A DNA stretch of 64,000 nt from Frateuria hangzhouensis (GTDB lineage Bacteria; Pseudomonadota; Gammaproteobacteria; Xanthomonadales; Rhodanobacteraceae): assembly GCF_026410505.1 (NCBI RefSeq), contig NZ_JAPMIU010000011.1:1-64000 (forward strand), in the 5' to 3' direction. Each line of letters begins with the position of its first letter. Position 1 is the first letter of the stretch. The notes under the pieces are model-generated. The model worked only from the letters and a program-made list of their open reading frames with translations, was not told the origin of the DNA and searched no databases. The translations under genes were made by a program, and so were the position numbers. Of this stretch, positions 39,264 through 64,000 are shown one piece after another.

Positions 39264-39427
39264 CTTGCCGGACGGTCGGGGCGCGCGCGGGCTTGGGGGC
39301 GGTTGTGCACGTAGTGCCACGAACATCGAAGCGGCGTCGATCGCGATCGGCCGGGCAGCCGCTCCACGGTGATCGATGCTGCTGCACCAGACGGTTTGCC
39401 ACGGTCCACCTTTCAGGGATAGAGCGT

Positions 39428-44068: not shown

Positions 44069-44120
44069 TGCCGGATCCTCGTATCGCCTCCCTGTAGAGC
44101 CATCCCCCACCGCGCCTGCG

Positions 44121-46106: not shown

Positions 46107-46144
46107 CGGCGATTCCTTGGGTGGCGTGGCGAAGGCATGGCGGC

Positions 46145-46831: not shown

Positions 46832-48088
46832 TCAGGTCACCCGGTCATCGAAGCGCGAACGCGATCGCTGGCGGAACGCGCCGGCGCGTGGCGGCACACT
46901 GGTGTGGTCGTGGCCATCGGCGTGCCCGTAGATTTCCGTGTAGCGCTCGGCCATGGTGCGGAACGAACCGTGCCGCAGGGCCCACTCGCGTCCGGCCTGG
47001 CCCATCGCCCGGGCGCGCGTGGCGTCGCCGAGGATGCCGATCATGGCCTCGGCCAGCGCCACCGGTTCGCCGGCCGGCACCAGCGCACCGTTGATGCCGT
47101 CACGGACGATCTCCGGGTTGCCGCCGACGCGGGTCGCCACGATCGGCAGCGCCGATGCGCATGCTTCCAGCAGCGCGATCGAGTAGCCCTCGGTGACGGA
47201 GGACATCACGAAAAGGTCGAGCCCGCGCAGCAGCGCAGGGATGTCGTTGCGGTCGCCCATGAAGAACACCCGCCCGGCGATGCCCTCCGCTTGCGCAAGC
47301 GCTTCCAGCGCCGGTCGCAACGAGCCGTCGCCGATCAACACCAGCGCGGTGTCGGGCAGCCGCTCGTGTACCCGCCGGAAGGCGCGCAGCAGCGTCGCGT
47401 GGTCCTTGGCCCAGGTCAGGCGGCCGACGAACCCGGCCAGGCGGGTGTCCGGCGGCACGCCCAGCGTCGCCTGCAGCCGCTGCCGATCCTCTTGCGACGC
47501 CGGTTCGAAGCGGTCGACGTGGATGCCGTTGGGCACCGCCAGGATCTTGTGCGCCGGAAGATCCGCGCGTTGCTGGAATTCCCTGCGCGCGGTTTCGCAG
47601 ACGGCGGCGACCGCGTGGGTGAACGCCATCGACTTGCCGTACAGCCATTCCAGCCGGTCGTCGCGCCACGAACGTCCGCGCGAACGGCTCTGCGCGGCGG
47701 CGCGGGTGGCGCCCATGCCATGCCGCGTGCTGACCACTCGCCGCAGGCGGAGGCCGCGCGATGCCAGCACCGCGTAGTAATGCGAGATCGCGTTGTGCGT
47801 ATGCAGGATCTCGGTGGCATGCGCGAGCAGGAAGCGGCGCGCCCTCCGGATGGCGCGCAGGTCCAGGCCGCGGCGCTTGCCGCAGCTGAGCACGGGCACA
47901 CCGAGTTCGGCCAGCTCCGGCGCCAGCGCACCGGGCGCGAACAGGCAGACCACCTGGCAGCGGTAGCCGGCATCCCGTTGTGCCCGCACCAGGTCGATCA
48001 CGACCCGCTCCAGGCCGCCGCGATCGAGGGACTCGACGAAGTGGGTGATGTTCACGGCAGCCTCGGGTCGTGGTGGCATCGAAGACAT
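46832..48088 (-). CDS. Family 4 glycosyltransferase
   Basis: A 418-aa GT-B glycosyltransferase. The N-terminal acceptor domain starts NITHFVESLDRGGLERVVIDL, and the donor domain has ILAVPNGIHVDRFEP, LAGFVGRLTWAKDHATLLRA and the ExxxE donor motif in SSVTEGYSIALLEACA. It resembles the PEP-CTERM-associated GT4 group (TIGR03088-like). I choose the ATG at 48088: AAGGA lies eight bases upstream, and the start is one base after the flippase stop. In-frame alternatives exist at 48097 and at a GTG at 48109. It should extend the lipid-linked oligosaccharide. Confidence 0.88.
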   Translation of the reverse strand: MSSMPPRPEAAVNITHFVESLDRGGLERVVIDLVRAQRDAGYRCQVVCLFAPGALAPELAELGVPVLSCGKRRGLDLRAIRRARRFLLAHATEILHTHNAISHYYAVLASRGLRLRRVVSTRHGMGATRAAAQSRSRGRSWRDDRLEWLYGKSMAFTHAVAAVCETARREFQQRADLPAHKILAVPNGIHVDRFEPASQEDRQRLQATLGVPPDTRLAGFVGRLTWAKDHATLLRAFRRVHERLPDTALVLIGDGSLRPALEALAQAEGIAGRVFFMGDRNDIPALLRGLDLFVMSSVTEGYSIALLEACASALPIVATRVGGNPEIVRDGINGALVPAGEPVALAEAMIGILGDATRARAMGQAGREWALRHGSFRTMAERYTEIYGHADGHDHTSVPPRAGAFRQRSRSRFDDRVT

Positions 48089-48089
48089 C

Positions 48090-49631
48090 TCAGGCATCCT
48101 TGCAGGCACGCTTGCCTGCCCAGGCCAGCAGGGCCACCAGTGCGGGAACCGCCGGCAGCCGTTCGTGCAGCCGCTGCATGTGCCCGATGTCGCCCCGGCT
48201 CCAGCAGCCCAGCGCGAACGTCAGCAACAGGTAGGCGACGGCGAAGGTGGCACCGCCCAATACCAGCGTCGGCAACGGCGTCCACAGCCCGCGCAGCGGC
48301 AGCACGGCGACGGCCGCCAGCGCCGCGGCGGAGATGATCCGCACCAGCCGCGGCCAGTCCGGCTGCAATCCGCTCACGCGCATGGCCAGGGCGACGATCG
48401 CCATGGCGGTGAGCACGTTGGCGATGGTGCAGGCCGCCACCGCGCCGGCCAGTCCGAAGTGCACGGTCAGCACCACGTCGAGCAGCAGCTTGAACGCCGC
48501 ATTGGCGATCACCAGCAACATGATGCTGCGTTGCCGGTCCGCACTGATCAGCAGGCTGGAGGCAGCCTGCGATACGGTGCCCAGCGCCGCGCCGAACAGG
48601 CAGATGGCGAACACCGGCGCCGCCGCGGCATAGGAGGCGCCGTACAGCAGACCGATCACGGCCGGGGCGAACACGAAGCCGAAGGCCACCAGCGGGGCGG
48701 CAAGCAACATCAGGTAGGTGGTCGCTCCGGCGAACCGCCGCCCGGCCAACGACATGCCGCGGCTCAGCGCGTTGGCCATCATCGGCAACAACAGGGCGCC
48801 GACCACGCCGGGCAGCAACAGCGCCGCGCCGGCGGCAAGCTGGAACGCCACCTTGAACTGTCCGGCCTCCGCGGGCGAGGCGAACAGGTTGAGAAACAGC
48901 ACCTCGACGTCGCTGGTGGCGACGAAACCGACGGTGATCGTGACCGCCACGTAGCGCATGTGGCGCGCGATCCGCCGCTTCAGTTCCGGCGACAGGCGGG
49001 CGCCCGCGGACGCCGGCACCAGCCGCGCCGTCTGGTAGTGCGAGACGCCGTAGAACACCGCGCTCGAAATCGCATACACCACCAGGAAAACGCCCATGGA
49101 AGCATCCAGCCACCACGCGCCGGCCACCATGGCCAGGTTGAGCGGGGTGGCGATCAGCGCCACCATCGCGGTGGCGCGAAAATTCTCCAGCCCCTTGCCC
49201 AGCGAGATGTTGAACATGTAGGGCGCGCGCAGGCTGATGGTCAGCGCCAGCAGGCCGAACAGGACCAGACGGTCGATGTCCGGCACCAGCTTGTCGCCAG
49301 CCAGCGCCGCCAACAGCCCGGTCGCGACCAGCACCAGCAGCAGGCAGGTCCGCTGGGTGCGGCGCAGGTAGCCGAGCAGCGGCCGGATCAGCTCCTCCCG
49401 GCCGCTGCCGCGGAATTCGGCGACGAACTTGATCGCCGCGCTGGCGGACCCGGCGTTGGTCATCGTCATGCCCACCGAAACCAGCCAGATCACCAGGCTA
49501 TAGATGCCGAAGCTCTGCGGCCCCAGGTGGCGCGCGATCAGGATCGACGTGAGCATGCCCAGGACATACTCGGTGTAGATCCCCGCCGAGGAGAACAAGG
49601 TATTGCGGAGCGCGCTCGCCGGTGCGTTCAT
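48090..49631 (-). CDS. Wzx-type polysaccharide flippase
   Basis: A 513-aa integral membrane protein of the MOP/PST superfamily. It has about 12-14 hydrophobic segments spread over the whole length. The start TLFSSAGIYTEYVLGMLTSI and SFGIYSLVIWLVSVGM are typical of the Wzx N terminus, and ADRQRSIMLLVIANAAFKLLLD is a usual C-domain motif. It should flip the lipid-linked repeat unit across the inner membrane. The ATG overlaps the ligase/polymerase stop at 49628-49631. Confidence 0.9.
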   Translation of the reverse strand: MNAPASALRNTLFSSAGIYTEYVLGMLTSILIARHLGPQSFGIYSLVIWLVSVGMTMTNAGSASAAIKFVAEFRGSGREELIRPLLGYLRRTQRTCLLLVLVATGLLAALAGDKLVPDIDRLVLFGLLALTISLRAPYMFNISLGKGLENFRATAMVALIATPLNLAMVAGAWWLDASMGVFLVVYAISSAVFYGVSHYQTARLVPASAGARLSPELKRRIARHMRYVAVTITVGFVATSDVEVLFLNLFASPAEAGQFKVAFQLAAGAALLLPGVVGALLLPMMANALSRGMSLAGRRFAGATTYLMLLAAPLVAFGFVFAPAVIGLLYGASYAAAAPVFAICLFGAALGTVSQAASSLLISADRQRSIMLLVIANAAFKLLLDVVLTVHFGLAGAVAACTIANVLTAMAIVALAMRVSGLQPDWPRLVRIISAAALAAVAVLPLRGLWTPLPTLVLGGATFAVAYLLLTFALGCWSRGDIGHMQRLHERLPAVPALVALLAWAGKRACKDA

Positions 49632-50896
49632 TGGAACGCCAGCAGGGTTCGGACCACGACATACAGGCCCACCACGATGGCCGCCGCGATCGCCGCCAGG
49701 CGAACCCAGTCGCGGCCCAGGGCAAAGCCCGGCAGCGAGGCAAACCGGCGCCGCGCGTTGGCATAGAACGCCACCACCAGTGCGGTGAGCAGATACAGCA
49801 CCAGCGTATAACTGCGACTGAGGAAGAACGCCGATGCCAGCCAGCCGCTGAGCGATAGCAGCAGCGTCATCGCGATCGCGCGCTCGGTAGCCCAGGCGGC
49901 GGTCGCCTGCGCATCCGGCAGCTCCGGCTCATGCCGCAACACCGTCAGCATCATCCAGAAGCAGTAGCCGACGAAGCCAAGCCACAGCGTGAACCCGACG
50001 AAGCCGGTCTCGGCCAGCACCAGGATCAGCGAGTTGTGCGCGGTGAGGTCGTTGTGGTCGGTGAAATTGCCGGCACCGACGCCGAACACCGGATGGGAGA
50101 GGAACATCTGCAACCCTTCGTACCAGGCGTCCACCCGGCCGCTGGCCGATTCCTCGCCCGGGCTCAGGTCTTCCAGCCGCGAGGGCAGCAGGAACAACCC
50201 GGCCAGTCCCACGCTGCCGAGCATGGCGGCTGCCACGACGCCATGCTTGCGCCACAGGTAAACGCCAAGGACCGCCGCCACCGCCAGCATCGCGCCGCGC
50301 GAATCGGTCAGGTAGATCGCGTAGAGCAGCATCAGCCCCGCGCCCAGCCAGAACACCCGGCCCAGTCCGAGGCCGCCGGCACGGCTGCCCAAAAACAGCG
50401 CCATCGGCAGGGTCAGCACGAAAAGCATGCCCAGGTCGTTGGGGTCGTTGAAGATGCCCACGTACTGGATACGACCGTCCTGGATCAGCGGCACGCCGGT
50501 CCAGCCGACGCCCGTATGCGCCTGCTCCACGCCATGCAATGCGAGCACCGTCGCGCACACCACGAACGCGGCCATGACGATGTAAACCTGCCGCGTGCTG
50601 GTGACCGCGTTGGCCAGGACGATGAAGGCCGCCACGATCGGGCCGAACTGCAGCAACTGGGCCAGCGCGCCTCCGGCCCAGCCGTTGGTGATCTGCGAGA
50701 ACATCATCACGACCAGGAACGCACCCAGCAGCAGGTACTGCGGCGCCGCGAACGACTTGTTGCGCGAGACCAGCCAGCCGCACAACGCCAGCACCAGCGT
50801 CATCGGCAGCAGCGGCAGGTTGGCCTGGACGAGCGCCGGATATTCCTGCGGCCGGATCAGCACCAATGCGAGATACAGCACGATGAAGAAAAACAT
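49628..50896 (-). CDS. O-antigen ligase/Wzy-like membrane protein
   Basis: A 422-aa polytopic membrane protein (about 11 helices) with the Wzy_C/O-antigen ligase signature: a large periplasmic loop after about 240 (GEESASGRVDAWYEGLQMFL), then HPVFGVGAGNF and a conserved HN pair in DLTAHNSLILVLAETG. It should polymerise the flipped repeat units, or ligate them to an acceptor. Start ATG at 50896 has no clear ribosome site. It lies between the flippase gene (overlap) and a deacetylase gene. Confidence 0.87.
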   Translation of the reverse strand: MFFFIVLYLALVLIRPQEYPALVQANLPLLPMTLVLALCGWLVSRNKSFAAPQYLLLGAFLVVMMFSQITNGWAGGALAQLLQFGPIVAAFIVLANAVTSTRQVYIVMAAFVVCATVLALHGVEQAHTGVGWTGVPLIQDGRIQYVGIFNDPNDLGMLFVLTLPMALFLGSRAGGLGLGRVFWLGAGLMLLYAIYLTDSRGAMLAVAAVLGVYLWRKHGVVAAAMLGSVGLAGLFLLPSRLEDLSPGEESASGRVDAWYEGLQMFLSHPVFGVGAGNFTDHNDLTAHNSLILVLAETGFVGFTLWLGFVGYCFWMMLTVLRHEPELPDAQATAAWATERAIAMTLLLSLSGWLASAFFLSRSYTLVLYLLTALVVAFYANARRRFASLPGFALGRDWVRLAAIAAAIVVGLYVVVRTLLAFQ

Positions 50897-50929: not shown

Positions 50930-52021
50930 CTAGCCGGCCCGCACGCGCTTGGGGTGCGCGAACACCTCCGGCAGCGAGGTCATGGCGGCGAACCAGTCGA
51001 TGTCCATGTCGCTCTCGACGGAAAGGCGCTGCAATCCGTAATGCGATGTGGCCGGCAGGCGATTGAGCCCGGTCACGTAATTGCAGGCCATGCGGAAGCC
51101 CGCCCGCCGGGCCGCTTCGATGACCTGCGGGTTGTACGAGTCCGGGCCGCCGACCGGATAGGACAGCACTTCGATCGGTGCGCCGATTTCACGCTGGAGC
51201 GTGCGCATGGATTGGTCGATCTCGGTCACCATGTCCGCCGGCGAAAGCTTGGCCAGGATATGGTGGTGGACGCCGTGCGAGCCCACCTCCATGCCCGCCG
51301 CGCGCATCTCGCGCAACTGGTCCCAGGTCATCGGACGGCACTGCGCGTGCCGGTCCGGCCGCATGCCCCAGGCCTCGCCGAGGCGGGCGATCACCGCCGC
51401 CTGGGTGATCGCATCGAGTGCCTTGAGATGGAACAGCAGTTCCTTGCCCAGCGCCCGGCGTCCGGCCAGCGTGGCGGGCATGGCCTGGTCGAAGGCCAGC
51501 TCGTCCACCTGCAACCGCTCAACCTGCGTGCGGCATAGCATGTGGACCAGCCAGTCGTAGGCATAAGGCATGCCGCTGTCGATATGGCCGGTGGAGACGA
51601 AAAACATGGCCGACATGCCCAACTCGCGCAATATCGGAAAGGCGACATGGTAATTGTCGTCATAACCGTCATCGAAAGTGACGATGAGCGGCTTTGGCGG
51701 CAACGGCCGACCGCTGTCCAGGGCGGCAATGAGTTGATGGAAACCTATCGGATCGTAATAACGCTTGACCAGCAGCATCTGTTCGCGGAACTGGTCCGGC
51801 GAGGCGCTGATTTCGTTGAGGTCGAAAGCGAATGCATCCGGGTTGCCGACATCGAGTACCCGGTGGTAAGCCAGGATGCGCAGATCCTTGCGCAATACGC
51901 GCCGCAACGTCGTCAATCCGGGCAGCACGCCGACGGCGCTGCAAAACGCAGCCAGCCGTTGCCGCTTTCCCGGTCGCTGCAGGGCAACTTGGTCGGATCC
52001 GTTGGCGGTTTCGGTAGTCAA
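50930..52021 (-). CDS. Polysaccharide deacetylase (CE4, N-terminally extended)
   Basis: About 363 aa if translation begins at the TTG at 52021, which has GGAG seven bases upstream. The deacetylase domain shows LRILAYHRVLD, TFDDGYDDNY (motif 1) with GMSAMFFVSTG, HGVHHHILAKLS (motif 2, metal His) and VLSYPVGGPDSYN (motif 3). The final LMH-type motif is not obvious, as in the PgaB-like subset. An earlier ATG at 52102 is possible, but its extra sequence has no signal. No membrane anchor is certain. It leads the eight-gene reverse operon, so its promoter should lie in the divergent gap before 52549. Confidence 0.83.
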   Translation of the reverse strand: MTTETANGSDQVALQRPGKRQRLAAFCSAVGVLPGLTTLRRVLRKDLRILAYHRVLDVGNPDAFAFDLNEISASPDQFREQMLLVKRYYDPIGFHQLIAALDSGRPLPPKPLIVTFDDGYDDNYHVAFPILRELGMSAMFFVSTGHIDSGMPYAYDWLVHMLCRTQVERLQVDELAFDQAMPATLAGRRALGKELLFHLKALDAITQAAVIARLGEAWGMRPDRHAQCRPMTWDQLREMRAAGMEVGSHGVHHHILAKLSPADMVTEIDQSMRTLQREIGAPIEVLSYPVGGPDSYNPQVIEAARRAGFRMACNYVTGLNRLPATSHYGLQRLSVESDMDIDWFAAMTSLPEVFAHPKRVRAG

Positions 52022-52548
52022 GGCAACGCTCCATGCGCAACTGACACACCAGGACGAGGGCCGTACGGCATACGCCGGCTTCAGGTGCCGGACCCTACGC
52101 ATACCGCTATATCGACCCCGTTTCGGAAGTATGGCACTACCTCGGGTGTCATGGGTGAAATTGCACGAAAACTTCACGTATGCGACGTCGCTTTAATCGG
52201 CGATTAACTCGACCCCTCCGCGTGCCCTGCGCATGCGAATGCAACGGGCATATGTACTCGCTGCAGAACATCGACTACCGTTACCTCCCTGCACGGTTTA
52301 TGCACTCGGCGGCGCAATTAATGCGCTGGTTGCTGGACATGTCGGCCAAGGGGAAACCGCGATGCGAATGCGCGCTGCGAAAGGCGGAACCCGATCGCAT
52401 GCCGGATTTTCGCGGCGCCCCGCGGCCCACGTCGATATCCGCCCCGCCCGGGCGACGCTGTATCGGGCGTTCCGTCCCGGCGGCATCGCCGCAGCGAGCT
52501 TCGCCGGCGAATCGGCCGCGGCGCCCGGCCGCGCGGGAGCCTGACGCC
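52022..52548. other. Divergent intergenic region without a recognised gene
   Basis: These 527 bases separate the EPS operon start (reverse) and a GT4 gene (forward). The frame of the GT4 gene is open back to 52180, but its upstream part (Arg/Pro/Cys-rich) shows no domain or signal, so I leave it out. The stretch from about 52090 to 52330 is lower in G+C than the genes around it and is the probable divergent promoter region. I see no strong -35/-10 pair or long palindrome. Confidence 0.5.
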
Positions 52549-53730
52549 ATGCGCGTGCTGGTCGTCACCTCGCAGTTCCCGATCCGCGACGAGCCCACGC
52601 GCGGCCGGCCGCTCGTGCAGACCGTGCAGCAGTTGGCGCGGATGGCAACCGTCCGCGTGATCAGCCCGGTTGCCGTCTATCCGCGCTGGGCGCGACCGGG
52701 CAGCTACGTGGCGCACGCTCCAGGTGCGCCGGCAGGACTGGACGGCGAGGTCGAGTATCCGTCCTACGCCGCCCTGCCCGGCCTGACCCGCCCCCTCAAC
52801 GGCTGGCTGTGCGCCCGTGCGATCGGTGATGCGCTGGCGCGCTTCCGGCCCGACGTGGTGCTGGCCTACTGGCTCTATCCGGACGCCTACGGCGCGATGC
52901 TGGCGGCGCGGCGTGCCGGCGTGCCGCTGGTCGCCGGTGCACGCGGTTCGGACATCCGCGTGCGTGGCGGGGTCAGCCGTCGGCTGACCTGCCGCGTGGT
53001 GCGCGATGCACGGCGCCTGCTGGTGGTCAGCGAGGACCTGGGCCGGCTGGCGGTACGACGCTACGGCGCCGATGCCTCGCGGGTGCGCGTCATTTCCAAC
53101 GGATGCGATGCGGCGACCTTCCATCTCGGCGACCGGATGGCCGCACGCCAGGCGCTCGGCGTGCCTCCGGACGCCGAGGTCGTGCTGTACGTCGGTCGAC
53201 TGGTCGCCGAAAAGGGGCTGCGCGAACTGTTCGAGGCGGCTCGCCGGATTGCGGTCCAGCGGCCCAGGCTGCAGTTGGTGCTGGTCGGCGGCGGTCCCAT
53301 GCAGGCTGAACTCGAAGCGCTGGCGGCAGCGAGCGACCACGTGCGACTGGCCGGCCCATTGGCACCGGCGGCCGTGGCGCAATGGATGGTGGCGGCCGAC
53401 CTGGTGACGCTGCCGAGCTATTCCGAGGGCCACCCCAACGTGCTGGTCGAGGCCCTCGCCTGCGGCCGCCCGGTGGTAGCCACCGACGTGGGCGGTATTC
53501 CGGAGGTGGTCGACGCGGCCAGTGGGGTGCTCATCCACCCGCGCGATAGTGCCGACCTGGCGCGCGGCCTGGACGAAGCCTTGCAGCGGCACTGGGACGA
53601 GGCGGCCCTCTCCGGGCGGTTCTCCCGCAGTTGGAGCCGCGTCGCCGAGGAAACCCTCGCGCAATGCGCCGAGGCGCTGGCCGATACCGGTGCGTGCACT
53701 GGCGGCATGGGGCGGGCAGAACCGGCCTGA
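52549..53730 (+). CDS. Family 4 glycosyltransferase
   Basis: A 393-aa GT-B enzyme: MRVLVVTSQFPIRDEPTRGR start, acceptor domain to about 180, then VRVISNGCDAATFHLGDRMA, VVLYVGRLVAEKGLRELFEA and the donor ExxxE motif in SYSEGHPNVLVEALACGRPV. It resembles TIGR04063/TIGR03087-like EPS glycosyltransferases. The ATG at 52549 has GGGAG upstream. It is the only forward gene between the EPS operon and the NRPS genes and ends 21 bases from the NRPS stop (convergent). Its last 25 residues have no family counterpart. Confidence 0.9.
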   Translation: MRVLVVTSQFPIRDEPTRGRPLVQTVQQLARMATVRVISPVAVYPRWARPGSYVAHAPGAPAGLDGEVEYPSYAALPGLTRPLNGWLCARAIGDALARFRPDVVLAYWLYPDAYGAMLAARRAGVPLVAGARGSDIRVRGGVSRRLTCRVVRDARRLLVVSEDLGRLAVRRYGADASRVRVISNGCDAATFHLGDRMAARQALGVPPDAEVVLYVGRLVAEKGLRELFEAARRIAVQRPRLQLVLVGGGPMQAELEALAAASDHVRLAGPLAPAAVAQWMVAADLVTLPSYSEGHPNVLVEALACGRPVVATDVGGIPEVVDAASGVLIHPRDSADLARGLDEALQRHWDEAALSGRFSRSWSRVAEETLAQCAEALADTGACTGGMGRAEPA

Positions 53731-53751: not shown

Positions 53752-56700
53752 TCAGCGGTTGAAGAGCCGGCGCAACTTCCCACCCAGCGACAGCGTGCCC
53801 GAACGCGCGTCACCCCACGACTCCGGCAGTTCCGTCGCCAGCGATGCCAGGGTGCTCGTGGCCACGTGCAGCAGGTTCAGACGCACCCCGGTCTCCCTGT
53901 GCACGCGCGCGGTGAATTCCACCGCGAGCAGCGAATGTCCGCCCACGTCGAAGAAATTGTCGCTCGGTCGCACTGCCGCGATGCCGACCAGCTCGCGCCA
54001 GACCCTGGCCAGGTAGGCCTGGCGCGGATCGGTCAGGGGCGGCTGCGCCGCGGAGCCGGCCGGATCGTCCTCACCATGCAGCGAGCGCATCGATGCTGGC
54101 GCCGGCAGCGCCTTGCGGTCGATCTTGCCGTTGGGCGTCTTGGGCAGCGCATCGAGCCGTTCGATGTGCTGCGGCCGCATGTAGTCAGGCAGGGTCTCGC
54201 GCAGTCTGCCGATCAGGTGCTGGACGAGCTCGGGGGCGGCGTCGGCCACCACATAGAGCACCAGCCGCACGTCGTTGCCGCCGAACGATCGCGCCACCGC
54301 CACGCATTCGCGCACGGCCGGCTCCGCTGCGGCGGCCGCCTCGATGTCGCCCGGCTCGATGCGATATCCGCGGATCTTTATCTGATTGTCCGCACGGCCG
54401 TGAAAATACAGCACGCCCTCGCGCAGGCTGCCCAGGTCGCCGGTGCGGTACATGCGTGCATCGCCGCCGGCAAACGGATCGGCGACGAAGCGCTCGGCGG
54501 TCAGTTCGGGGCGGAACAGATAGCCGTCCGAAACACCGTCGCCGCCGATCCAGATTTCCCCCACCACGCCGGCCGGTACCGGTCGGCTGCTCGCATCGAG
54601 CACATAGATCCGCGTATTGGCGATCGGCTTGCCCAGCGGGATGGTGGCGACGTCCGGATCGATCCGCGCAACCGTCGACCAGATGGTCGTTTCGGTAGGG
54701 CCGTAGAGGTTCCAGAATTCCCCGCAGCTCCCGGCCATGGCACGTGCCAGCGTCAATGGCAGCGCCTCGCCACCGACGAACAGGCGCAGCCGCCGCACCA
54801 CGTGCTCCTGGCCCAGGCCCTGCAGCAGCTGCAGCAGCGACGGGGTGGTCTGCAGCACCGTGCAACCGGTACGTTCGATGAGCTCGAACAACGTCGCCGG
54901 CTCACGATGCAGCAGCTCGGTGGCAATGACCAGCCGGCCACCGACGATCAGCGGCAGGTACAACTCCAGGCCGGCGATGTCGAAGGACAGCGTGGTCACC
55001 GCACACAGCACGTCGTCGGCGCCGAACCCCGGTTCGCGGCACATGCTGAGCAGGAAGTTGACCAGGTTCCTGTGCAGGATCCGGACGCCCTTGGGTTCAC
55101 CGGTCGAGCCGGAAGTGAACAGCACATAGGCCAGGTCGTCTCCACGCACCGCGGGCAGCGGTGCTTCATCGACGCGCTCTGCGCGCAGTCGCGCCACTGC
55201 CAGCAGTTCGCGCCCCTCGGCGACCACCTCCGGCACCTGTTGCGGATCGGTCATGAGGACATGGCGCAGGCGCGCGTGCGTCGCCATGTGGCGTAATCGT
55301 CCATCCGGGAATTTGGGATCCAGCGGCACGTAGGCCGCGCCGCTGCGCAGGATGCCCAGCACCGCCACCAACATGTCCAGGCTGCGCGGCACGCACACGC
55401 CCACCATCTCGCCGCGGCCGATGCCACGCCGCCCCAGCGCCTGTGCGACCGCGCGGGTTGCGCGTTCCAGGGCGGCATAGTCGATCCGTTCGCCCTCGCA
55501 TTCGGCGGCGATGCGCCCCGGGGTCTGGCGCATCTGCGCTTCGATCAATGCCGTCAGCGCCTGCTCCCGGTCGTAGGCGCTTGCCGTTGCGTTCCATGCC
55601 TCCAGTACCTCACGGCGCGCATCGGTACCGAGCAGTTCCAGGTCGTCCACCGAGGCATCCGCGGCACCCTCGTCGACCATCGCGGACAACAGGGTCGCGT
55701 AAAGCCCGATCCAGCGCCGCACGGTGGAGCTGTCGTAGCGCGCGGTCGCGTAATGCACGTCCAGGGTGAGGGTCTCGCCGCTGTCGGCCAGGTTGAAATA
55801 CAGGTCCCAGTCCAACGCCACCCGCGGACATTCGCGCAGTTCATGGGCCAGCCCCGCGAAAGCCCGGGTCGGCAGGCGTGGCAACAGGTTGAACGTGACA
55901 CCGGTCAGCGGGGCTTCGCCGCCGCTGGCGCGCAGGCCGAGCGCACGCAGGATATTGGTCAACGTGGTGTCCTGGTGTGCAGCGGCATCCAGCAGCGCGG
56001 TATGGACCTGTTTCACCAGCTGGCCCAACGGGGCGCCGTGGGCGATGTCCAGGCGCACCGGCAACGCACTGACACCGTCGCCCATCACCACGCCGTTTCC
56101 GCTCAGCGCCAGCCCGGCGAACGGCACCGCCACCGCGAAATCGCGCTGTCCGGACAGCCGCGCCATCAACATGCCGAAGCCAGCCAGCAACAAGCCGTAC
56201 AGGCTGACACCATGACCCCGGGCCGCTTGCCTGAGCGCCACGGCCAGCGCAGGGTCGAAGTCGTACTGCTCGGTACCCGCGGCGTAGTCCGGTTGCGCGG
56301 GTGCCGGCCGATCGGCGGGCAACCGCAAGGCCGCGGGCGGCGCCTCATGCAGTGTCTTCCAATAGGCGAGGCTGGCAGCGCCGGCGCCGTCGCGACGGCG
56401 CGCCTGCTCATCGAGCAGATGGCGCCGGAACGATCCGGCCTGCGCAAGAGCGGGCTCCTTGTCGGCAACGTACGCGTTGTAGGAGGTGGCCAATTCATCG
56501 ACGAACAAGGCCATCGACCAGCCGTCCATGACCAGATGATGGGCGATCACGTGCAGCGCATGATCCGCCTCGCCAAGCCGTACGAGGGCGAACCGCACCA
56601 GCGGCGCCGCCGTCAGGTCGAACGGCCGGCCGGCCTGTTGTTCGCAGAACTCCCGCAGTCGTTCTTCGGCCTGCCCGTCGGCATAGTCCAGCAGTGCCAG

Positions 56701-58752
56701 CGGCAGGGTTGCCCCGGCCTCGAATCGCTGGCTGCTGCCGTCGCCGGCAACACTGAAGCGAAGCGCTTCATGGCGCTGCCAGACCGTGGCAAGCGCGCGC
56801 TCCAGCGCCGTCCTGTCCAGCGTGCCGCGCAGGCGGAGCAAGGACGATTCGTTGAAGGCGAGCGACGCCGTTTCGCCAAACTGGCACGCGAACCATTTCT
56901 CCATCTGTGCTTCGCTGAGCGGCAGCGCGAGGGGAAGATCCATGACCGGATCGTTTTGCGCCACCGGCGTTGGTGCATCGGGCGCGGATACCGTGCCGAG
57001 CGCGCGCGCCTGCTGTCGCGGCGTCGGCAGGTCGTACACCGTTTGTGCGGCCAGCGTCGCGCCGGCCAGTGCGCGCAGCCGGGTGACGAAAATCATGACC
57101 TGCAGCGAGTCGGCACCCAGATCGAACACGTTGGCGTCGACATCCACCGCGGGCACGCCCAGCAGTTGGGCCCAGAGGTCGGCGATGCGCACCTCGACCG
57201 CTTCGTCGCCTGGCGTGCCGACCGCCGCCATGGCAATGGTGGACTCGGCTTCCAGCCGGCGGCGGTCGATCTTGCCGTTCGGCGTGCGCGGCAACGTTCG
57301 GCGTACCACAACGCGATGAGGCCGGGCGAAGGCGGGCAGCCGCTCAGCCAGGTGTCGCCCGAGCTCGGCCTGGACCGATTCGGTGGAGACTGCGAGGTCA
57401 TCCAGCAGGACATGAGCGACCAGACGCCGTCCGGCGGAGCCCGCGGGAGCCACCACCGCCACCTGGCTTACCGCCGCGTGAGTGGCCAGGACGCCTTCCA
57501 CCTCTGCCAGCTCGACACGATGTCCGGCAATCTTCACCTGATCGTCCGTCCGGCCGAGAAACGTGAGATGGCCATCAGCCGCGCGGCGCACCCGGTCGCC
57601 GGAGCGGTACACCCGCTCTGGCGCGGCGCCCGCGGCTTCCAGGTGCACGAAGCAACCGGCACTCGGGATGGGGCGGTTGATGTAACCGTCGGCCAGGCAC
57701 GCACCTGCGATCAGCAACTCGCCGTCGGCGCCGACTGGTACCGGTTGCATCGCTTCGTCCACCACATGCAACCGCACGGTCGGTCGCGGTTGGCCCAACG
57801 GCGGACGGTCCGGCCATTGTGCCGGATCACCGGCGAGCGAATGGCTGGTAACGAATACGCTGGCTTCGGTGGGGCCGTACTCGTTGTGGAGAACGGCTCC
57901 AGGCATGGCGGCAAACAACTGGCGGATGGCCGGCGTGATCACCAGCGCTTCGCCACCGGTAGTCACATCGCGCAGCGCCTGCGGTCGTGCGCCGCCCTCG
58001 GCGTGGGCCTGCGCCATGGCAAACAGCGAGACATAAGGCAGCGATATCCGCTCGATGCGCAGCCTGCGCAGGTGTTCCAGCAGGCCGAAAGGGTCTTGGC
58101 GAAGTGTTTCGGGCGCGATCATCAGCGTCCCGCCGGTCGCCAGAGTCGCGAAGACATCGCGCACGGCCGGATCGAAGCCAAGGGGCACGTACTGTAGTAC
58201 GCGCGCTGGCCGGCCCAGGCGCGGATGGTTCACGTGCCAGGCCACCAGGTCATCGAGCGCACGGCGCGGCAGCACCGCGCCCTTGGGCTGCCCGGTCGAA
58301 CCCGAGGTGAAGATCACATAAGCCGGCTGATCGGCCGCCGCGGCCACGGCATCGATCGGGGCGCCGGCGACGGTCGACTCCAGCACGGGCAGCCCCAAGG
58401 CCTGCAATGCCCCACCATGCATGTCGGGCCCGGCCACGATCAGCCGAGGCCGCGCGTCTCGCACCATGCTGGCCAGGCGGGCAGGCGGGTGGGACAGGTC
58501 CAGCGGCAGCCAGGCCGCGCCGGCGCAGTACACCGCCAACATGCTCACGATGCTTTCGACCGAACGGTCGCAGGCCACGCCGACGATGTCTCCCGGTGCG
58601 GCCCCCTCCCTCCGCAGGCGCCCCGCTAGCGCCAGCGTGCGCGTACGTAGCGTGGCGTAGTCGAGTTCGCACTGGTCGTCCGACAAAGCCAGGCGCGCGG
58701 GATCCATCTCGGCCCAATGCAGAAAGCCGAGCGCCATGTGATCAGCTTGCAT
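53752..58752 (-). CDS. Non-ribosomal peptide synthetase, A-T-C-A-T without thioesterase
   Basis: A 1666-aa NRPS. Adenylation domain 1 (about 25-500) has IFTSGSTGQPKGAV (A3), EYGPTEAS (A5), YRSGDRVRR and PNGKIDR (A10). Carrier 1 has DLGADSL with the phosphopantetheine Ser at 549. The condensation domain (about 605-1045) has HHLVMDGWS (HHxxxDG). Adenylation domain 2 (about 1070-1560) has LFTSGSTGEPKGVRI, LYGPTETTIW and PNGKIDRK, and carrier 2 has VGGHSLL. The chain ends LSLGGKLRRLFNR with no release domain. Domain 2 has a specificity line read by eye as D-I-L-Q-F-G-L-I-W-K, close to a glycine-type code; domain 1 (FDPAV start) is unassigned. It begins with an A domain, so it could start a chain. 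AGGGGG lies just before the ATG at 58752. Confidence 0.93.
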   Translation of the reverse strand: MQADHMALGFLHWAEMDPARLALSDDQCELDYATLRTRTLALAGRLRREGAAPGDIVGVACDRSVESIVSMLAVYCAGAAWLPLDLSHPPARLASMVRDARPRLIVAGPDMHGGALQALGLPVLESTVAGAPIDAVAAAADQPAYVIFTSGSTGQPKGAVLPRRALDDLVAWHVNHPRLGRPARVLQYVPLGFDPAVRDVFATLATGGTLMIAPETLRQDPFGLLEHLRRLRIERISLPYVSLFAMAQAHAEGGARPQALRDVTTGGEALVITPAIRQLFAAMPGAVLHNEYGPTEASVFVTSHSLAGDPAQWPDRPPLGQPRPTVRLHVVDEAMQPVPVGADGELLIAGACLADGYINRPIPSAGCFVHLEAAGAAPERVYRSGDRVRRAADGHLTFLGRTDDQVKIAGHRVELAEVEGVLATHAAVSQVAVVAPAGSAGRRLVAHVLLDDLAVSTESVQAELGRHLAERLPAFARPHRVVVRRTLPRTPNGKIDRRRLEAESTIAMAAVGTPGDEAVEVRIADLWAQLLGVPAVDVDANVFDLGADSLQVMIFVTRLRALAGATLAAQTVYDLPTPRQQARALGTVSAPDAPTPVAQNDPVMDLPLALPLSEAQMEKWFACQFGETASLAFNESSLLRLRGTLDRTALERALATVWQRHEALRFSVAGDGSSQRFEAGATLPLALLDYADGQAEERLREFCEQQAGRPFDLTAAPLVRFALVRLGEADHALHVIAHHLVMDGWSMALFVDELATSYNAYVADKEPALAQAGSFRRHLLDEQARRRDGAGAASLAYWKTLHEAPPAALRLPADRPAPAQPDYAAGTEQYDFDPALAVALRQAARGHGVSLYGLLLAGFGMLMARLSGQRDFAVAVPFAGLALSGNGVVMGDGVSALPVRLDIAHGAPLGQLVKQVHTALLDAAAHQDTTLTNILRALGLRASGGEAPLTGVTFNLLPRLPTRAFAGLAHELRECPRVALDWDLYFNLADSGETLTLDVHYATARYDSSTVRRWIGLYATLLSAMVDEGAADASVDDLELLGTDARREVLEAWNATASAYDREQALTALIEAQMRQTPGRIAAECEGERIDYAALERATRAVAQALGRRGIGRGEMVGVCVPRSLDMLVAVLGILRSGAAYVPLDPKFPDGRLRHMATHARLRHVLMTDPQQVPEVVAEGRELLAVARLRAERVDEAPLPAVRGDDLAYVLFTSGSTGEPKGVRILHRNLVNFLLSMCREPGFGADDVLCAVTTLSFDIAGLELYLPLIVGGRLVIATELLHREPATLFELIERTGCTVLQTTPSLLQLLQGLGQEHVVRRLRLFVGGEALPLTLARAMAGSCGEFWNLYGPTETTIWSTVARIDPDVATIPLGKPIANTRIYVLDASSRPVPAGVVGEIWIGGDGVSDGYLFRPELTAERFVADPFAGGDARMYRTGDLGSLREGVLYFHGRADNQIKIRGYRIEPGDIEAAAAAEPAVRECVAVARSFGGNDVRLVLYVVADAAPELVQHLIGRLRETLPDYMRPQHIERLDALPKTPNGKIDRKALPAPASMRSLHGEDDPAGSAAQPPLTDPRQAYLARVWRELVGIAAVRPSDNFFDVGGHSLLAVEFTARVHRETGVRLNLLHVATSTLASLATELPESWGDARSGTLSLGGKLRRLFNR

Positions 58753-59048
58753 CCTTCCCCCTAACGATCGAATTCCCGTTCGTTCAAAGCAGCAAAGCAG
58801 TCATTGCACAGCCTGGATCCGGAAAGTACCGCAATTGCCAAATGCGTACCAATGCGCGTCATCGCGGCCATTTTTTTGATAGGAGCGCGCGCGATCCCGT
58901 GCGGACAAGGAGTGCCGTTCCCGCTGGGCAAATGCGGCGACCGGACGGCGTACATGCGGCCCGTTCAAATGGCGCGGACGGGGCACGTCACGCCACCTGC
59001 GCCGCGGCGACGACCCGCGGAGGCGTCCAACACCGCGAACCATCGCCC
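58753..59048. other. Gap between the two NRPS genes
   Basis: These 296 bases hold no recognisable gene. A run of seven T on the forward strand at 58871-58877 is not next to a stem and points the wrong way for a terminator of the upstream NRPS. Part of the gap is lower in G+C and could hold a promoter for the second NRPS gene, but no good box pair is seen. Confidence 0.4.
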
Positions 59049-62000
59049 TCAATCGGACCTGCCAATGCCCAGCAGACGGCGCAGCCGTGAACCTATCGCC
59101 GTCCGCGAATCCGCCGGCGGCTGTGGCACCGAGGCGCCCCCTTCGGGAAGCGCAGCGGCGAGCGCGGCCAGCGTGCCGGTGGCGATATCCAGCAGATTGA
59201 TGCGCACGCCGGTTTCCCTGCGCACGCGCGCCGTCAGCTCCATCGCCAGCAGCGAATGCCCACCCACGTCGAAGAAATTGTCGCTTGGCTGGACCTGGGC
59301 CACTCCGATGAGTTCGCACCACAGCGTCGCCAGATATCGCTCGCGCGGCTCGGCATCGGCCAACCAGCCGGCACGGTCTTCTGCGGGCGTCACCCCGGTG
59401 CGCAACTGCGGCATGGGCAACGCCTTGCGGTCGACCTTGCCGTTGGGTGTGCGCGGCAACGCCGGCAGTGCCACCAGGTACTGCGGCTGCATGTAGCCTG
59501 GCAGTTGCGCGGCGAGCCGGCCGCGCAGGCGCGGCAGCAGGCTGGTTTCGGCTTCGCCGGAGGCGACGTACAGCAGCAGCCGGCGGTCCTGCGCATCGAC
59601 GTCGTGGATGGCCGCGACACATTCGTCGACCGCCGGATCCTCCCGCGCGATCGATTCGATCTCGCCCAGCTCGATGCGGAAACCGCGCAGCTTGATCTGG
59701 AAATCGAGCCGGCCCAAATGTTCCAGCGTGCCGTCGCTGCACCAGCGTCCGCGGTCGCCGGTGCGATACATGCGCGCGCCCGGGAGCCCCGCGTATGGAT
59801 CGGCGACGAAACGTTCGGCGGTCAGGTCGGGCCGATGGCGATAGCCCAGCGCGACGCCGGCACCGCCGATCCAGATTTCGCCGGGCACGCCCACGGGACA
59901 ACGCTGCCCTTGCTCGTCGCGGATCCACACTGTGGTGTTGGCGATCGGCTTGCCGATGGCGATGCGCTCGCGCGGGTGCTCGACGCGCCAGCAGGTCGAC
60001 CACACCGTGGTCTCGGTCGGGCCGTACAGATTCCACACTTCGCTGCAGCGGGCCAGCAATTGGGCAGCCAGTTCCGGCGACAGCGCCTCGCCGCCGCACA
60101 AGGCGCGGAAGCCCGGGGTGCCGCACCAGCCCGCCTGCAACAGCGCCTGCCAGGTGGCCGGCGTCGCCTGCATCACGGTGGCGTGGCTCGCCATGAGCAA
60201 GCCCTTGAGCGCCTCGCCGTCCATCGCGTCATCGCGCCGGGCCACCACGACCTCACCACCGACGCTCAACGGGCCGAACAGCTCCAGCACGGCGATATCG
60301 AAAGACAACGTGGTCACCGCCAGCAGCCGGTCGTCCTCGCGCAGGCCGGGACGGGCCGCCATGGCGGTAAGGAAATTCACCGCCGCCCGGTGCGCAATCT
60401 CCACGCCTTTGGGCTTGCCGGTGGAACCGGAGGTGTAGATCACGTAGGCGATCGCATCGGGAGAGACCTGCGCTTCGACCGGCAGCGGCATCGCGGGCAG
60501 ATCCTCCATCGCCGCCGATTCGTCGAGCAGCAGCACCTCGCACTCGCAGGCCGGGAAACGCGAGAACAGCCGCTGCTCGGTCACCAGCACCGCCAGCCCG
60601 GCGTCCTCGAGCATGAAGGCCAGCCGCCCGGCCGGGAACGACGGGTCCAGCGGCACATAGCCCGCGCCGGTCTTGAGCGCGCCCAGCAGCGCGGCGACCA
60701 TGTCGAAGCCGCGGTCCAGCGCGATGCCGACCAGCGCGCCCGACCCCGCGCCGCGCGCGCGCAACGCATGCGCGATGCGGTTGGCGCGGGCATCCAGTTC
60801 GGCGTAGGTGAGTCGCGCATTGGCGCCGCGCAGGGCGATGCGTTGCGGGGTCCGCCGGGCCTGGGCCTCGACCAGGCCATGCAGGCTCTGCGCGGGAATC
60901 TCCGCGGCAGTGGCATTCCAGCGTTCCAGTTGCGCGATCTCGTCCGGCGGCAGCAGCGCCAGCCGGCACACCGGCTGGTCCGGCTCGGCCAGCGCCGAGG
61001 CCAGCAGCGCTTCGTAGTTCCTGCGCAGGCGCGCGGCGGCCTCGGTATCGAAAAGATCGGTGCTGTAGGTCAGTCCACCAAGCAGGCCGTGGTCCTGTTC
61101 GATGAACCACAAGCCCAGGTCGTCGGCGGCGCCGCGCTGGAACACCGGCAGGTGCTCGTGCCTGAGCTGCGCCCAGCACAGGTTGCGGTGGCGCACGTCC
61201 TGGAACGAGAAGCTGGCCTGGTAGATCGGCGAGCGGCTTTCGTCGCGCGGCACGCGAAGGTCCCTGACCAGTCGTTCGAATGGCACGTCCGGGCAGGCGA
61301 AGGCATCGAGCACCACGCCGCGCACCTGTTGCAGGACGGTGTTGAACGAGGCCTGCGGATCGATCTGCAGCCGCAACGGCAGGGCGTTGACGAAGAAGCC
61401 CATCACCGATTCGAGCTCGGCCGTCTCCCGCCCGCGCACGGGCACGCCGACGATCAGGTCGCGCTGGCCGCCGCTGCGGTGCAGGAACACGTAATAGGCC
61501 GCCAGCAACACCATGAACGAAGTGGTGCCGGTGCGCTGGCCCAGCCCGCGCACCGCTTCCATGCCCTCGGTCGACAGCCGGATCCACTCGGTGGCGCCGG
61601 CGCCCGACGGCCGTGGCGGGCGTGGGCGGGCCGCGGGCAGCTCCAGCGGTTCGAGCGGGCCGGCCAGGCGTTCGCGCCAGTGCGCAAGCTGGCGCTCCAG
61701 TTCCGGGCCCTGCATCCAGTCGCGCTGCCAGGCGGCAAAGTCGCCGTACTCGACCGCCGGCGGCGGCAAGGCCATCGGCCGGCCTTCGCAGGAAGCGGTA
61801 TAGGCCTCCGACAGCTCCGCGTACAGCAGATCGAATGACCAGCCGTCCCAGATGATGTGATGGGCCATGAAGAAGAACACGTGGTCCTGCTCGGCGAGCT
61901 TGAACAGCCGCACGCGGAACAGCGGCGCAGCGGCCAGGTCGAAGGGCTCGGCGATCATTGCATCGAGCCGCTGCATGAGTGCCGCCTCGCGTTCCCGCAG

Positions 62001-64000
62001 CGACGCGCCCGGCAGCGTCTCGACGGGCAGCAGGCGCACCTTCAGCGTCTCGTGGATGCGCTGCACGGCCGCGCTGTCATCCTGCTCGATCGACGTGCGC
62101 AGGATGGCCTGGCGATCGACCACCTGCTGTAGCGCACGCTCGAACGCGGCCTCGTCCATCGGCCCGCGCAGGCGATGCGCCGAGGGCGTGTTGTAGACCA
62201 CCCGCCCCGGGTGCAGTTGTTCCAGGTACCAGAGCCGCTGCTGCATCAACGACAGCGGGGCGCGTTGGCGGTCGGGCAGCCGCGGGATGCGCCTGCGATC
62301 GGTGGCCGCGCCGCCCTGCCCTGCGGCGCGGATGGCCTCGGCCAACCGCGCCGCGGTCTGCGCTTCGAACACCGTGCGCATCGGCAGTGCCAGCTCCAGC
62401 TCGCGATTGAGCCGGGCGACCAGTTGCGCCGCCAGCAGCGAATGCCCGCCGCGTTCGAAGAAGTTGTCTTCGACGCCCGGCTCGCTGCCGAGGACGGCCG
62501 CCATGGCCGTCACCACGCGCTGCTCGAGCGCGTCGCGCGGGGCGACGCGGCCGGCTTCTGCGGGAGATCCCTCCTCCGGGACCGGCAGCCGTGCGCGGTC
62601 GATCTTGCCGTTGGGCAGCCGCGGCAGCGCCGCCAGCACGACGAGGTGCTGCGGGATCATGTAATCGGGCAACGCCTCGCGCAGGTGTGCGCGGAGCGCC
62701 GCTTCGTCGACGGTGGCACCGGGGGCCGCCACCACGTGCGCGAGCAGGCGCACGTCGCCGGGACGGAGTTCGCGCGTGGTGGCCAGGGCATCGGCGACGC
62801 CGGGCAGGCTCAGCAGGCGCGCCTCGATCTCGCCCAGTTCGATGCGAAAACCGCGCAGCTTGACCTGGAAATCGAGCCGGCCCAGGTGCTCAAGCGTGCC
62901 GTCCGGACGCCAGCGGCCGCGATCGCCGGTGCGGTACATGCGGGCATCCGGCGTTGACGCGAACGGATCGGCGAGGAAGCGTTCGGCGGTCAGTTCCGGC
63001 CGATGGCGATAGCCCAGTGCGACGCCGGTTCCGCCAATCCAGATCTCGCCCGGCACCCCCAACGGGCAAAGCTGGCGCTGCTCGTCGAGGATCCACACCA
63101 CCGTGTTGGCGACCGGCGTGCCGATGGCGATGCCCTCGCGCGGATGCTCGACGCGCCAGCAGGTCGACCACACCGTGGTTTCGGTCGGGCCGTACAGGTT
63201 CCACACCTCGCCGCAACGGGCAAGCAATTGCTCCGCCAGGTCCGGCGCCAGCGCCTCGCCGCCACACAGTGCGCGGAAGCCGGGCGCCGGCGCCCAGCCG
63301 GTTTCCAGCAGCATGCGCCAGGTGGCCGGCGTGGCCTGCATCACGGTGGCCTGGCTCGACTCGAGCAGGCGTTTGAGTGCTTCGCCGTCCATCGCCTGCT
63401 CGCGTCGGGCCATCACCACCTCGCCACCGACGGCGAGCGGCCCGAACAGTTCCAGCACCGCGATGTCGAAGGACAGCGTGGTGACGGCCAGCAGCCGGTC
63501 GTCCGCGTGCAGCCCCGGTCGCCCCGCCATGCTGGCGAGGAAGTTCGCCGCCGCCCGATGGGGAATCTCCACGCCCTTGGGCTGGCCGGTGGAACCGGAG
63601 GTGTAGATCACGTAGGCGACCGCCGTGGCATCCACATCGGCATCGTCAGGGCGGGACGCCGGTGCTGCCGCGAGCGCATCGCCGGCCTGGTCAAGCGCCA
63701 GCACCGGGCGACCGCGCAGATCGAAGCGCCCGGCATGCCGCGCCTGGGTGACCAGCACGGCCAGGCTGGCATCGCTGACCATGTAGTTGAGCCGCTCGGT
63801 GGGAAAGCCCGGATCGAGCGGCACGTAGCCTGCACCGGCCTTGAGCACGCCGAGCACGGCCGCGAGCATGCCCACGCCCCGGTCCAGCGCGATGCCGACC
63901 AGCGCGCCGGCACGCACGCCATGGCCGCGCAGCACGTGCGCGATGCGATTGGCAAGCGCGTCCAGTTCGGCGTAGGTCAATGCCTGTTTGCCGAAGTGCA
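59049..64000 (-). CDS. Non-ribosomal peptide synthetase, partial (A-T-C-A-T visible, 5' end beyond window)
   Basis: At least 1650 aa; the reading frame is open to the right edge (FGKQALTYAELD, the A2 core of an A domain), so upstream domains are missing. Visible order: A domain (to about 62600), carrier with RGGHSLL (about 62440), condensation with AHHIIWDGWS (about 61850), a second A domain (about 60900-59430) and a second carrier with VGGHSLL (about 59260). Both A domains read D-I-L-Q-L-G-L-V-W-K by eye, a glycine-like or small-residue code, and are about 80% alike including long DNA identities. The end is IGSRLRRLLGIGRSD with no thioesterase or reductase. It is transcribed ahead of the other NRPS gene; both may form one assembly line. 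Confidence 0.92.
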   Translation of the reverse strand, partial: HFGKQALTYAELDALANRIAHVLRGHGVRAGALVGIALDRGVGMLAAVLGVLKAGAGYVPLDPGFPTERLNYMVSDASLAVLVTQARHAGRFDLRGRPVLALDQAGDALAAAPASRPDDADVDATAVAYVIYTSGSTGQPKGVEIPHRAAANFLASMAGRPGLHADDRLLAVTTLSFDIAVLELFGPLAVGGEVVMARREQAMDGEALKRLLESSQATVMQATPATWRMLLETGWAPAPGFRALCGGEALAPDLAEQLLARCGEVWNLYGPTETTVWSTCWRVEHPREGIAIGTPVANTVVWILDEQRQLCPLGVPGEIWIGGTGVALGYRHRPELTAERFLADPFASTPDARMYRTGDRGRWRPDGTLEHLGRLDFQVKLRGFRIELGEIEARLLSLPGVADALATTRELRPGDVRLLAHVVAAPGATVDEAALRAHLREALPDYMIPQHLVVLAALPRLPNGKIDRARLPVPEEGSPAEAGRVAPRDALEQRVVTAMAAVLGSEPGVEDNFFERGGHSLLAAQLVARLNRELELALPMRTVFEAQTAARLAEAIRAAGQGGAATDRRRIPRLPDRQRAPLSLMQQRLWYLEQLHPGRVVYNTPSAHRLRGPMDEAAFERALQQVVDRQAILRTSIEQDDSAAVQRIHETLKVRLLPVETLPGASLREREAALMQRLDAMIAEPFDLAAAPLFRVRLFKLAEQDHVFFFMAHHIIWDGWSFDLLYAELSEAYTASCEGRPMALPPPAVEYGDFAAWQRDWMQGPELERQLAHWRERLAGPLEPLELPAARPRPPRPSGAGATEWIRLSTEGMEAVRGLGQRTGTTSFMVLLAAYYVFLHRSGGQRDLIVGVPVRGRETAELESVMGFFVNALPLRLQIDPQASFNTVLQQVRGVVLDAFACPDVPFERLVRDLRVPRDESRSPIYQASFSFQDVRHRNLCWAQLRHEHLPVFQRGAADDLGLWFIEQDHGLLGGLTYSTDLFDTEAAARLRRNYEALLASALAEPDQPVCRLALLPPDEIAQLERWNATAAEIPAQSLHGLVEAQARRTPQRIALRGANARLTYAELDARANRIAHALRARGAGSGALVGIALDRGFDMVAALLGALKTGAGYVPLDPSFPAGRLAFMLEDAGLAVLVTEQRLFSRFPACECEVLLLDESAAMEDLPAMPLPVEAQVSPDAIAYVIYTSGSTGKPKGVEIAHRAAVNFLTAMAARPGLREDDRLLAVTTLSFDIAVLELFGPLSVGGEVVVARRDDAMDGEALKGLLMASHATVMQATPATWQALLQAGWCGTPGFRALCGGEALSPELAAQLLARCSEVWNLYGPTETTVWSTCWRVEHPRERIAIGKPIANTTVWIRDEQGQRCPVGVPGEIWIGGAGVALGYRHRPDLTAERFVADPYAGLPGARMYRTGDRGRWCSDGTLEHLGRLDFQIKLRGFRIELGEIESIAREDPAVDECVAAIHDVDAQDRRLLLYVASGEAETSLLPRLRGRLAAQLPGYMQPQYLVALPALPRTPNGKVDRKALPMPQLRTGVTPAEDRAGWLADAEPRERYLATLWCELIGVAQVQPSDNFFDVGGHSLLAMELTARVRRETGVRINLLDIATGTLAALAAALPEGGASVPQPPADSRTAIGSRLRRLLGIGRSD

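Follow-up and report, generated by a model that had tools for sequence, protein, structure and literature searches.

A PKS/NRPS module and a candidate hydrolase release pair in a Wzx/Wzy-type exopolysaccharide locus of Frateuria hangzhouensis

The locus described here joins modular peptide assembly with Wzx/Wzy polysaccharide synthesis, and the combination recurs across many genera of the family. The explanation that we favor, whose chances we judge to be even, is that an optional PKS/NRPS module sits in an XrtA-type exopolysaccharide (EPS) locus and that a pair of alpha/beta-hydrolase-like proteins, Hyd1 and Hyd2, unloads its chain, probably onto the EPS repeat unit. Such a role suggests a function for two hydrolase families whose only label is exosortase-associated, and it offers NRPS lines that lack a thioesterase a release mechanism that can be tested directly. 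The window, meaning the whole stretch of 64,000 nucleotides that was analysed, covers positions 1-64000 of a 128451-base contig (genome code G000).

Gene content of the exopolysaccharide island

The island (Table 1) and its continuation to the right hold a complete set for the Wzx/Wzy-dependent pathway in one locus, comprising a flippase, a polymerase, Wza/Wzc-like export proteins and an initiating transferase. The last of these (TIGR03013) is encoded to the right of the hybrid gene and on the same strand, together with an Sfp-like phosphopantetheinyl transferase (PPTase) and TviC- and TviB-like genes. A sequence-only reading of the window had placed the NRPS genes as a direct continuation of an EPS island. 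The island is real, with TIGR03027 and TIGR03007 matched over their cut-offs, but because EPS genes stand on both sides, the NRPS genes lie in its middle and not at its end. No exosortase (PF09721) match was found in the genome, and from its protein families we classify the island as a predicted exosortase-less, XrtA-type Wzx/Wzy EPS locus. No peptide exporter was recognised among the annotated island genes with NCBIfam and Pfam models.

Two proteins of the island are poorly described by existing families. The weak heparinase II-like protein had no Pfam match, and its true start probably lies further in. The uncharacterised protein next to the family 2 glycosyltransferase had no NCBIfam match and nothing significant in Pfam or PDB; it persists in EPS loci that have no NRPS module. 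Beside wza lies a gene for a GMC-type oxidoreductase (34256-36043, minus strand; Pfam), which may belong to the module because its homologue is found beside epsB and the PPTase gene in many relatives.

Table 1. Coordinates, strand and supporting matches of the island genes and the assembly-line genes.
Feature	Position	Strand	Basis
Wza-like EPS export protein	36152..36883	+	TIGR03027 over cut-off
Chain-length determinant	36940..38490	+	TIGR03007 over cut-off
Tyrosine autokinase-like protein	38487..39263	+	TIGR03018, E 7.6e-49, below cut-off
Outer-membrane beta-barrel-like EPS protein	39293..40738	+	TIGR03016, E 4.1e-17, below cut-off
hyd2, alpha/beta-hydrolase-like partner	40735..41523	+	TIGR03101, E 1.1e-22, below curated cut-off; 4-base overlap with preceding gene
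hyd1, alpha/beta-hydrolase (Cys111/Asp241/His242), proposed release enzyme	41516..42364	+	TIGR03100, E 3.9e-22, below curated cut-off
Weak heparinase II-like protein, possible EPS lyase	42392..44365	-	PDB phmmer E 1.8e-4 to heparinase II, short match
Family 2 glycosyltransferase	44121..44870	-	NCBIfam TuaG-like, below cut-off
Uncharacterised protein, among the island's best conserved	44883..46187	-	70-82% identity in fetched family loci
Polysaccharide deacetylase	46145..46831	-	Pfam PF01522; no obvious signal peptide (by eye)
Family 4 glycosyltransferase	46832..48109	-	TIGR03088-like, below cut-off
Wzx-type flippase	48090..49631	-	Pfam PF01943
Wzy/O-antigen ligase-type protein	49628..50896	-	Pfam PF04932
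Polysaccharide deacetylase	50930..52177	-	Pfam PF01522
Family 4 glycosyltransferase	52549..53730	+ (opposite strand)	NCBIfam
NRPS1, 1666 aa, A-T-C-A-T	53752-58752	-	Pfam
NRPS2, 2151 aa, C-A-T-C-A-T	59049-65504 (59049-64000 inside window)	-	Pfam on whole protein
Hybrid A-T-KS-AT-ACP-aminotransferase	65501-72790 (outside window)	same as NRPS2	Pfam

The assembly line

Both NRPSs had been read from the window as A-T-C-A-T proteins. This order holds for NRPS1, in which Pfam detected two AMP-binding, one Condensation and two PP-binding domains, but the whole NRPS2 protein contains two of each, since its first condensation domain sits beyond position 64000 and its gene starts at 65504. NRPS2 is preceded by the hybrid gene, with which it shares a 4-base overlap and which encodes, in order, an AMP-binding domain, a carrier, a ketosynthase, an acyltransferase, a second carrier and a class III aminotransferase. 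The acyltransferase carries the motif HAFH, which we take to mark a malonyl type. The HHxxxDG motifs, the carrier serines of the NRPS lines and the active-site motifs were intact in a motif check, and Pfam detected no thioesterase, reductase or terminal condensation domain in the hybrid, NRPS1 or NRPS2, which bears out the earlier description of intact lines without a terminal release domain. NRPS1 ends in a carrier followed by a short basic tail. The genome has three condensation-domain matches, all at this locus.

NRPS1 appears to be an optional extra, and it and NRPS2 do not form an equal pair as judged from the syntenic locus of G005, a member of the same genus, where NRPS1 is absent and its best match (39%) falls on NRPS2. 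An NRPS1 with 61% identity is present in G188, and a scan of the contig collection with NRPS1 yielded one Anaerolineae fragment at 31% identity. In loci L098 and L100 (G048 and G047), and also in G059, G073 and G075, NRPS1-type A-T and C-A-T parts stand on either side of KS-AT-ACP-aminotransferase at about 50% identity, and this arrangement suggests that NRPS1 belongs to a lineage of the same assembly line.

From the domain architecture, the predicted product of the hybrid and NRPS2 would contain two amino acids in addition to a starter residue and a single aminated unit derived from malonyl. NRPS1 would make a separate two-residue chain, since its first A-T has no condensation domain to accept the NRPS2 chain. 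At the PheA positions, the adenylation codes of NRPS2 and of the second adenylation domain of NRPS1 presumably resemble glycine-type codes and that of the hybrid starter valine-type codes; we treat these assignments as leads only.

Two further genes accompany the assembly line in relatives. A conserved protein without a Pfam match, encoded beyond the window at 73013-73840 of the contig (minus strand), adjoins the hybrid or epsB in most of 20 loci. A Cupin_8/JmjC-like oxygenase gene lies directly upstream of the hybrid in G053 (L075:13413-14330). Homologues are present in another 10 of the 20 loci, some of which have a second copy, but none was seen in the window's locus; a possible role is hydroxylation of the chain.

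Linkage of the hybrid to EPS genes within the family

With the T-aminotransferase portion of the hybrid as query and a threshold of E 1e-80, matches were detected in 88 of 197 family genomes, and the 81 of these with at least 52% identity are referred to as hybrid carriers. A TIGR03027 wza over cut-off was present in 80 of the 81 carriers, compared with 107 of the 197 genomes overall (Fisher p 3e-30, a value inflated by the shared ancestry of genomes of one family). Hybrid and wza were on the same contig in 63 cases and within 60 kb of each other in 59 of these; two of the four far pairs were read (G122 and G142), and in both the hybrid still has wzy, gt4, deac1 and deac2 as neighbors. The seven weaker matches (41-51% identity) were accompanied by wza in three genomes. 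Among the six genomes of the genus, the hybrid was found in G000, G004 and G005 and not in G001, G002 or G003. The island genes of the syntenic G005 locus are 70-92% identical to those of the window, and extra sequence between deac2 and gt4b appears by eye to encode a glycosyltransferase and an oxidoreductase/epimerase.

Neighborhoods of up to 20 kb on each side were fetched for 20 of the 88 genomes, and epsB was present in 18 of these loci. The G149 locus has wza, wzc, kinase and barrel genes instead of epsB, and the G028 locus has only glycosyltransferase-like EPS neighbors within the fetched stretch, with wza 47 kb away. Clear exosortase matches (E below 1e-60) occur in nine of the 197 genomes, all with wza and none with the hybrid; weak or partial matches (24-38 bits) occur in sixteen others, some of which are hybrid carriers (e.g., G061 and G097). 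The linkage of the hybrid with EPS genes within the family is, on these gene neighborhoods, evidently not due to chance. The earlier proposal of an NRPS-EPS link is thus strongly supported by conserved linkage in the family, with the amendment that the hybrid precedes NRPS2 and the two NRPSs are not equivalent. The NRPS/PKS genes, the PPTase gene and the hyd pair very probably constitute one functional module of this EPS locus.

The hydrolase pair

Past position 64000, no release domain is present in the hybrid or NRPS2; a probable release pair, hyd2-hyd1, lies instead inside the island at 40735-42364, its two genes overlapping by 8 bases. Hyd1 and Hyd2 are only distant relatives of TIGR03100 and TIGR03101, because their scores (78.8 and 80.8 bits) fall below the curated cut-offs (168.45 and 202.75 bits, respectively). 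Cys111, Asp241 and His242 of Hyd1 were invariant in the alignment of 45 distinct homologues (45/45), and the residue at the nucleophile position (elbow) of Hyd2 was Arg in 44 of 46 homologues and Gln in two. Of the 26 canonical loci that score above the TIGR03100 cut-off, 25 also show a Cys elbow (L194 among them; not seen in L199), and Arg elbows of the hydrolase 2 type occur in part of the 26. Both proteins match the Abhydrolase and Hydrolase_4 models of Pfam and not PF00975. A profile built from the Hyd1 alignment retrieved general alpha/beta-hydrolases only from the PDB, and a single-sequence AlphaFold2 model of Hyd1 had a mean pLDDT of 44.7.

At a survey cut-off of E 1e-15, hyd1 was detected in 77 of the 81 hybrid carriers. 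Two of the four exceptions, G028 and G127, have lines that end in a thioesterase; in the other two, G147 and G191, the hybrid is on contigs of 12.0 and 3.5 kb. Among the 20 fetched loci, a thioesterase matching the G028 query, itself a Pfam Thioesterase, was found only in G028, and that of G127, which is outside the 20 loci, is 86% identical to it. The C-termini of most other last NRPSs are short basic-hydrophobic tails (e.g., LGGRLRQLFGRR), and different ends are found in the extra C-A-T genes of G082 and G155. A search with TIGR03100 at E 0.001 in 14 hyd1-lacking genomes (the nine exosortase genomes, G009, G030, G034, G028 and G127) gave at most 29.1 bits, which is background level because matches also appeared in 8 of 14 control genomes.

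Outside the 81 hybrid carriers, hyd1 also occurs in six genomes. The hybrids of three of them (G018, G052 and G102) are more distant, and there hyd2-hyd1 lie behind NRPS genes. The hybrid was not found in G138 (77% complete) or G196 (440 contigs), both of which have EPS genes and hyd2-hyd1, and G194 has a weak hyd pair away from its wza. In ten family genomes (G018, G047, G052, G059, G061, G073, G075, G086, G097 and G102) the pair comes immediately after the last NRPS gene and on its strand; in the window, G005, G048, G138, G188 and G196 it follows the barrel gene of the EPS export row.

G009, G030 and G034 have wza and no hybrid. Retained in their EPS loci, at 33-77% identity, are tviB, wza, wzc, kinase, barrel, lyase, gt2, the uncharacterised protein, deac1, gt4, wzx, wzy and deac2. 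Condensation domains are absent from these three genomes, and no NRPS/PKS-domain, PPTase or hyd match was found in the 40 kb read from each, where epsB falls outside all three stretches and that of G034 ends at deac2, with the usual NRPS site outside. The polysaccharide machinery can therefore exist without the module, whose parts are absent together. G002 of the same genus has NRPS genes elsewhere in its genome, but no hybrid and no hyd1; hyd1 thus does not simply accompany any NRPS.

Homologues outside the family

Among 369 genomes at the class level the hybrid was found in 10, eight of them outside the family. The question raised with the sequence-only reading, whether homologues occur regularly without EPS genes, has two answers: they do not within the family, but outside it EPS neighbors were clear at only one (G367) of the eight hybrid loci. 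The hyd pair is near the hybrid in G241, G386 and G367, and directly behind the last NRPS in G367. The G440 locus has a thioesterase; in G456 a thioesterase-like stretch lies at the NRPS locus, with the hyd genes on a separate contig; and neither hyd pair nor thioesterase was found at the hybrid loci of G312, G373 and G526. Of 15 stretches around non-canonical class-level hyd1 matches, eight contain a gene with an A or C domain, which in seven is within about 1.5 kb and on the same strand. In the distant genomes G341 and G386, hyd2 is fused behind the last NRPS carrier and hyd1 follows with a 4-base overlap; no EPS genes were recognised there with the island reference set. In G410, a cyclic-peptide ABC exporter gene comes right after hyd2-hyd1. 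Since it adjoins NRPSs without recognised EPS genes and, in one case, such an exporter, the pair is not glycan-specific and is a general partner of carrier-bound chains; for the same reason, the transfer of peptide onto polysaccharide proposed earlier remains something that we infer for this locus.

These contexts speak for a rival reading in which the module yields a free secreted peptide, such as a signal, siderophore or antibiotic, that Hyd1 and Hyd2 release by hydrolysis or cyclisation; the genes would lie in an EPS locus because the cell surface or the biofilm is where both products act. That comparable lines in G028 and G127 carry a canonical thioesterase fits this reading as well. We nevertheless regard it as unlikely: the island has no recognised peptide exporter, wza accompanies nearly every hybrid carrier, and in six genomes including that of the window the pair is embedded in the EPS export row.

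Proposed release and transfer of the chain

In the explanation that we favor, Hyd1, with its Cys, Asp and His, and the Arg-bearing Hyd2 would act in trans to unload the chain from the terminal carrier, replacing a thioesterase. In the cytoplasm the chain would pass to the lipid-linked repeat unit, where an amine exposed by the deacetylases is one possible attachment point, and the decorated unit would be flipped by Wzx and then polymerised to give a peptide-decorated EPS. That the pair performs release is likely; the EPS repeat unit as acceptor is a more tentative assignment, a little short of even. The explanation as a whole draws on the wza association (80/81 carriers; 59/63 pairs within 60 kb), the presence of epsB in 18 of 20 loci, the co-occurrence of hyd1 with the hybrid (77/81), its absence where a thioesterase is present, its position behind the last NRPS, the hyd2 fusions, the joint absence of the module's parts, the invariant Cys-Asp-His and the lack of a recognised exporter in the island. 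Counted against the favored explanation are the contexts in G341, G386 and G410, the single EPS locus among the eight outside the family, G456, and hyd1 without a detected hybrid in G138, G194 and G196.

A bolder form of the same explanation, possible though further from even, is that the Cys/Arg pair is a carrier-to-glycan acyltransferase that would move a beta-amino peptide from the PKS/NRPS line onto the lipid-linked repeat unit, and that the canonical pair of exosortase loci would do likewise with a simpler activated acyl or aminoacyl group.

Hyd1 and Hyd2 could instead be type II editing thioesterases that clear misloaded carriers, with the actual release performed by another transferase of the island, a condensation-like or glycosyltransferase-like protein. 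The separation of the pair from the NRPS genes in the window and the generic alpha/beta-hydrolases that are its nearest solved relatives agree with this, and the conserved uncharacterised protein could be the transferase. This reading is improbable, since hyd1 was not found in the thioesterase lines of G028 and G127, where editing would still be useful, hyd2 is fused behind the last carrier in some lines, the Hyd1 elbow is Cys rather than Ser, and the uncharacterised protein is also present in G009, G030 and G034, which have no condensation domain. Least probable is a reading in which the product forms a glycolipopeptide, or a lipid anchor for the polysaccharide, instead of a repeat-unit substituent. 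It shares the locus evidence of the favored explanation, and a PKS-like RkpA reportedly acts in Sinorhizobium K-antigen synthesis, but the module is not an essential anchor because G009, G030 and G034 have syntenic EPS loci without it, and the locus encodes a TIGR03013 transferase for starting on polyprenyl in the usual way.

Comparison with known systems

We did not find this combination of known kinds of machinery, with its proposed release pair, described in the open-access literature: no title or abstract start reported an NRPS encoded within an EPS locus of the Wzx/Wzy or XrtA type, and passages of PMC9040847 and PMC10434035 contained nothing on an NRPS-bearing EPS locus. The closest relatives of the island are the XrtA/PEP-CTERM EPS loci, with which it shares the NCBIfam families of its export, chain-length and initiating proteins (TIGR03027, TIGR03007 and TIGR03013) and a hydrolase pair with Cys and Arg elbows as in the canonical pair. 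It differs in that its genome lacks an exosortase, for which reason we do not class it as a PEP-CTERM system, in the presence of a PKS/NRPS line and a PPTase gene, and in hydrolases well below the curated cut-offs.

The assembly line, with KS-AT-ACP-class III aminotransferase followed by C-A-T modules, has the architecture of PKS/NRPS lines of the microcystin McyE and mycosubtilin type. Unlike those lines, it ends in a carrier and a short tail without a thioesterase and sits in a polysaccharide locus. The PF00975 thioesterase of G028, whose line shares hybrid and NRPS2 homology with that of the window, holds the place in the last step that Hyd1 and Hyd2 would take, and belongs like them to the alpha/beta-hydrolase fold family; in contrast to it, Hyd1 and Hyd2 form a two-protein pair that has Cys and Arg as elbow residues and matches Abhydrolase and Hydrolase_4.
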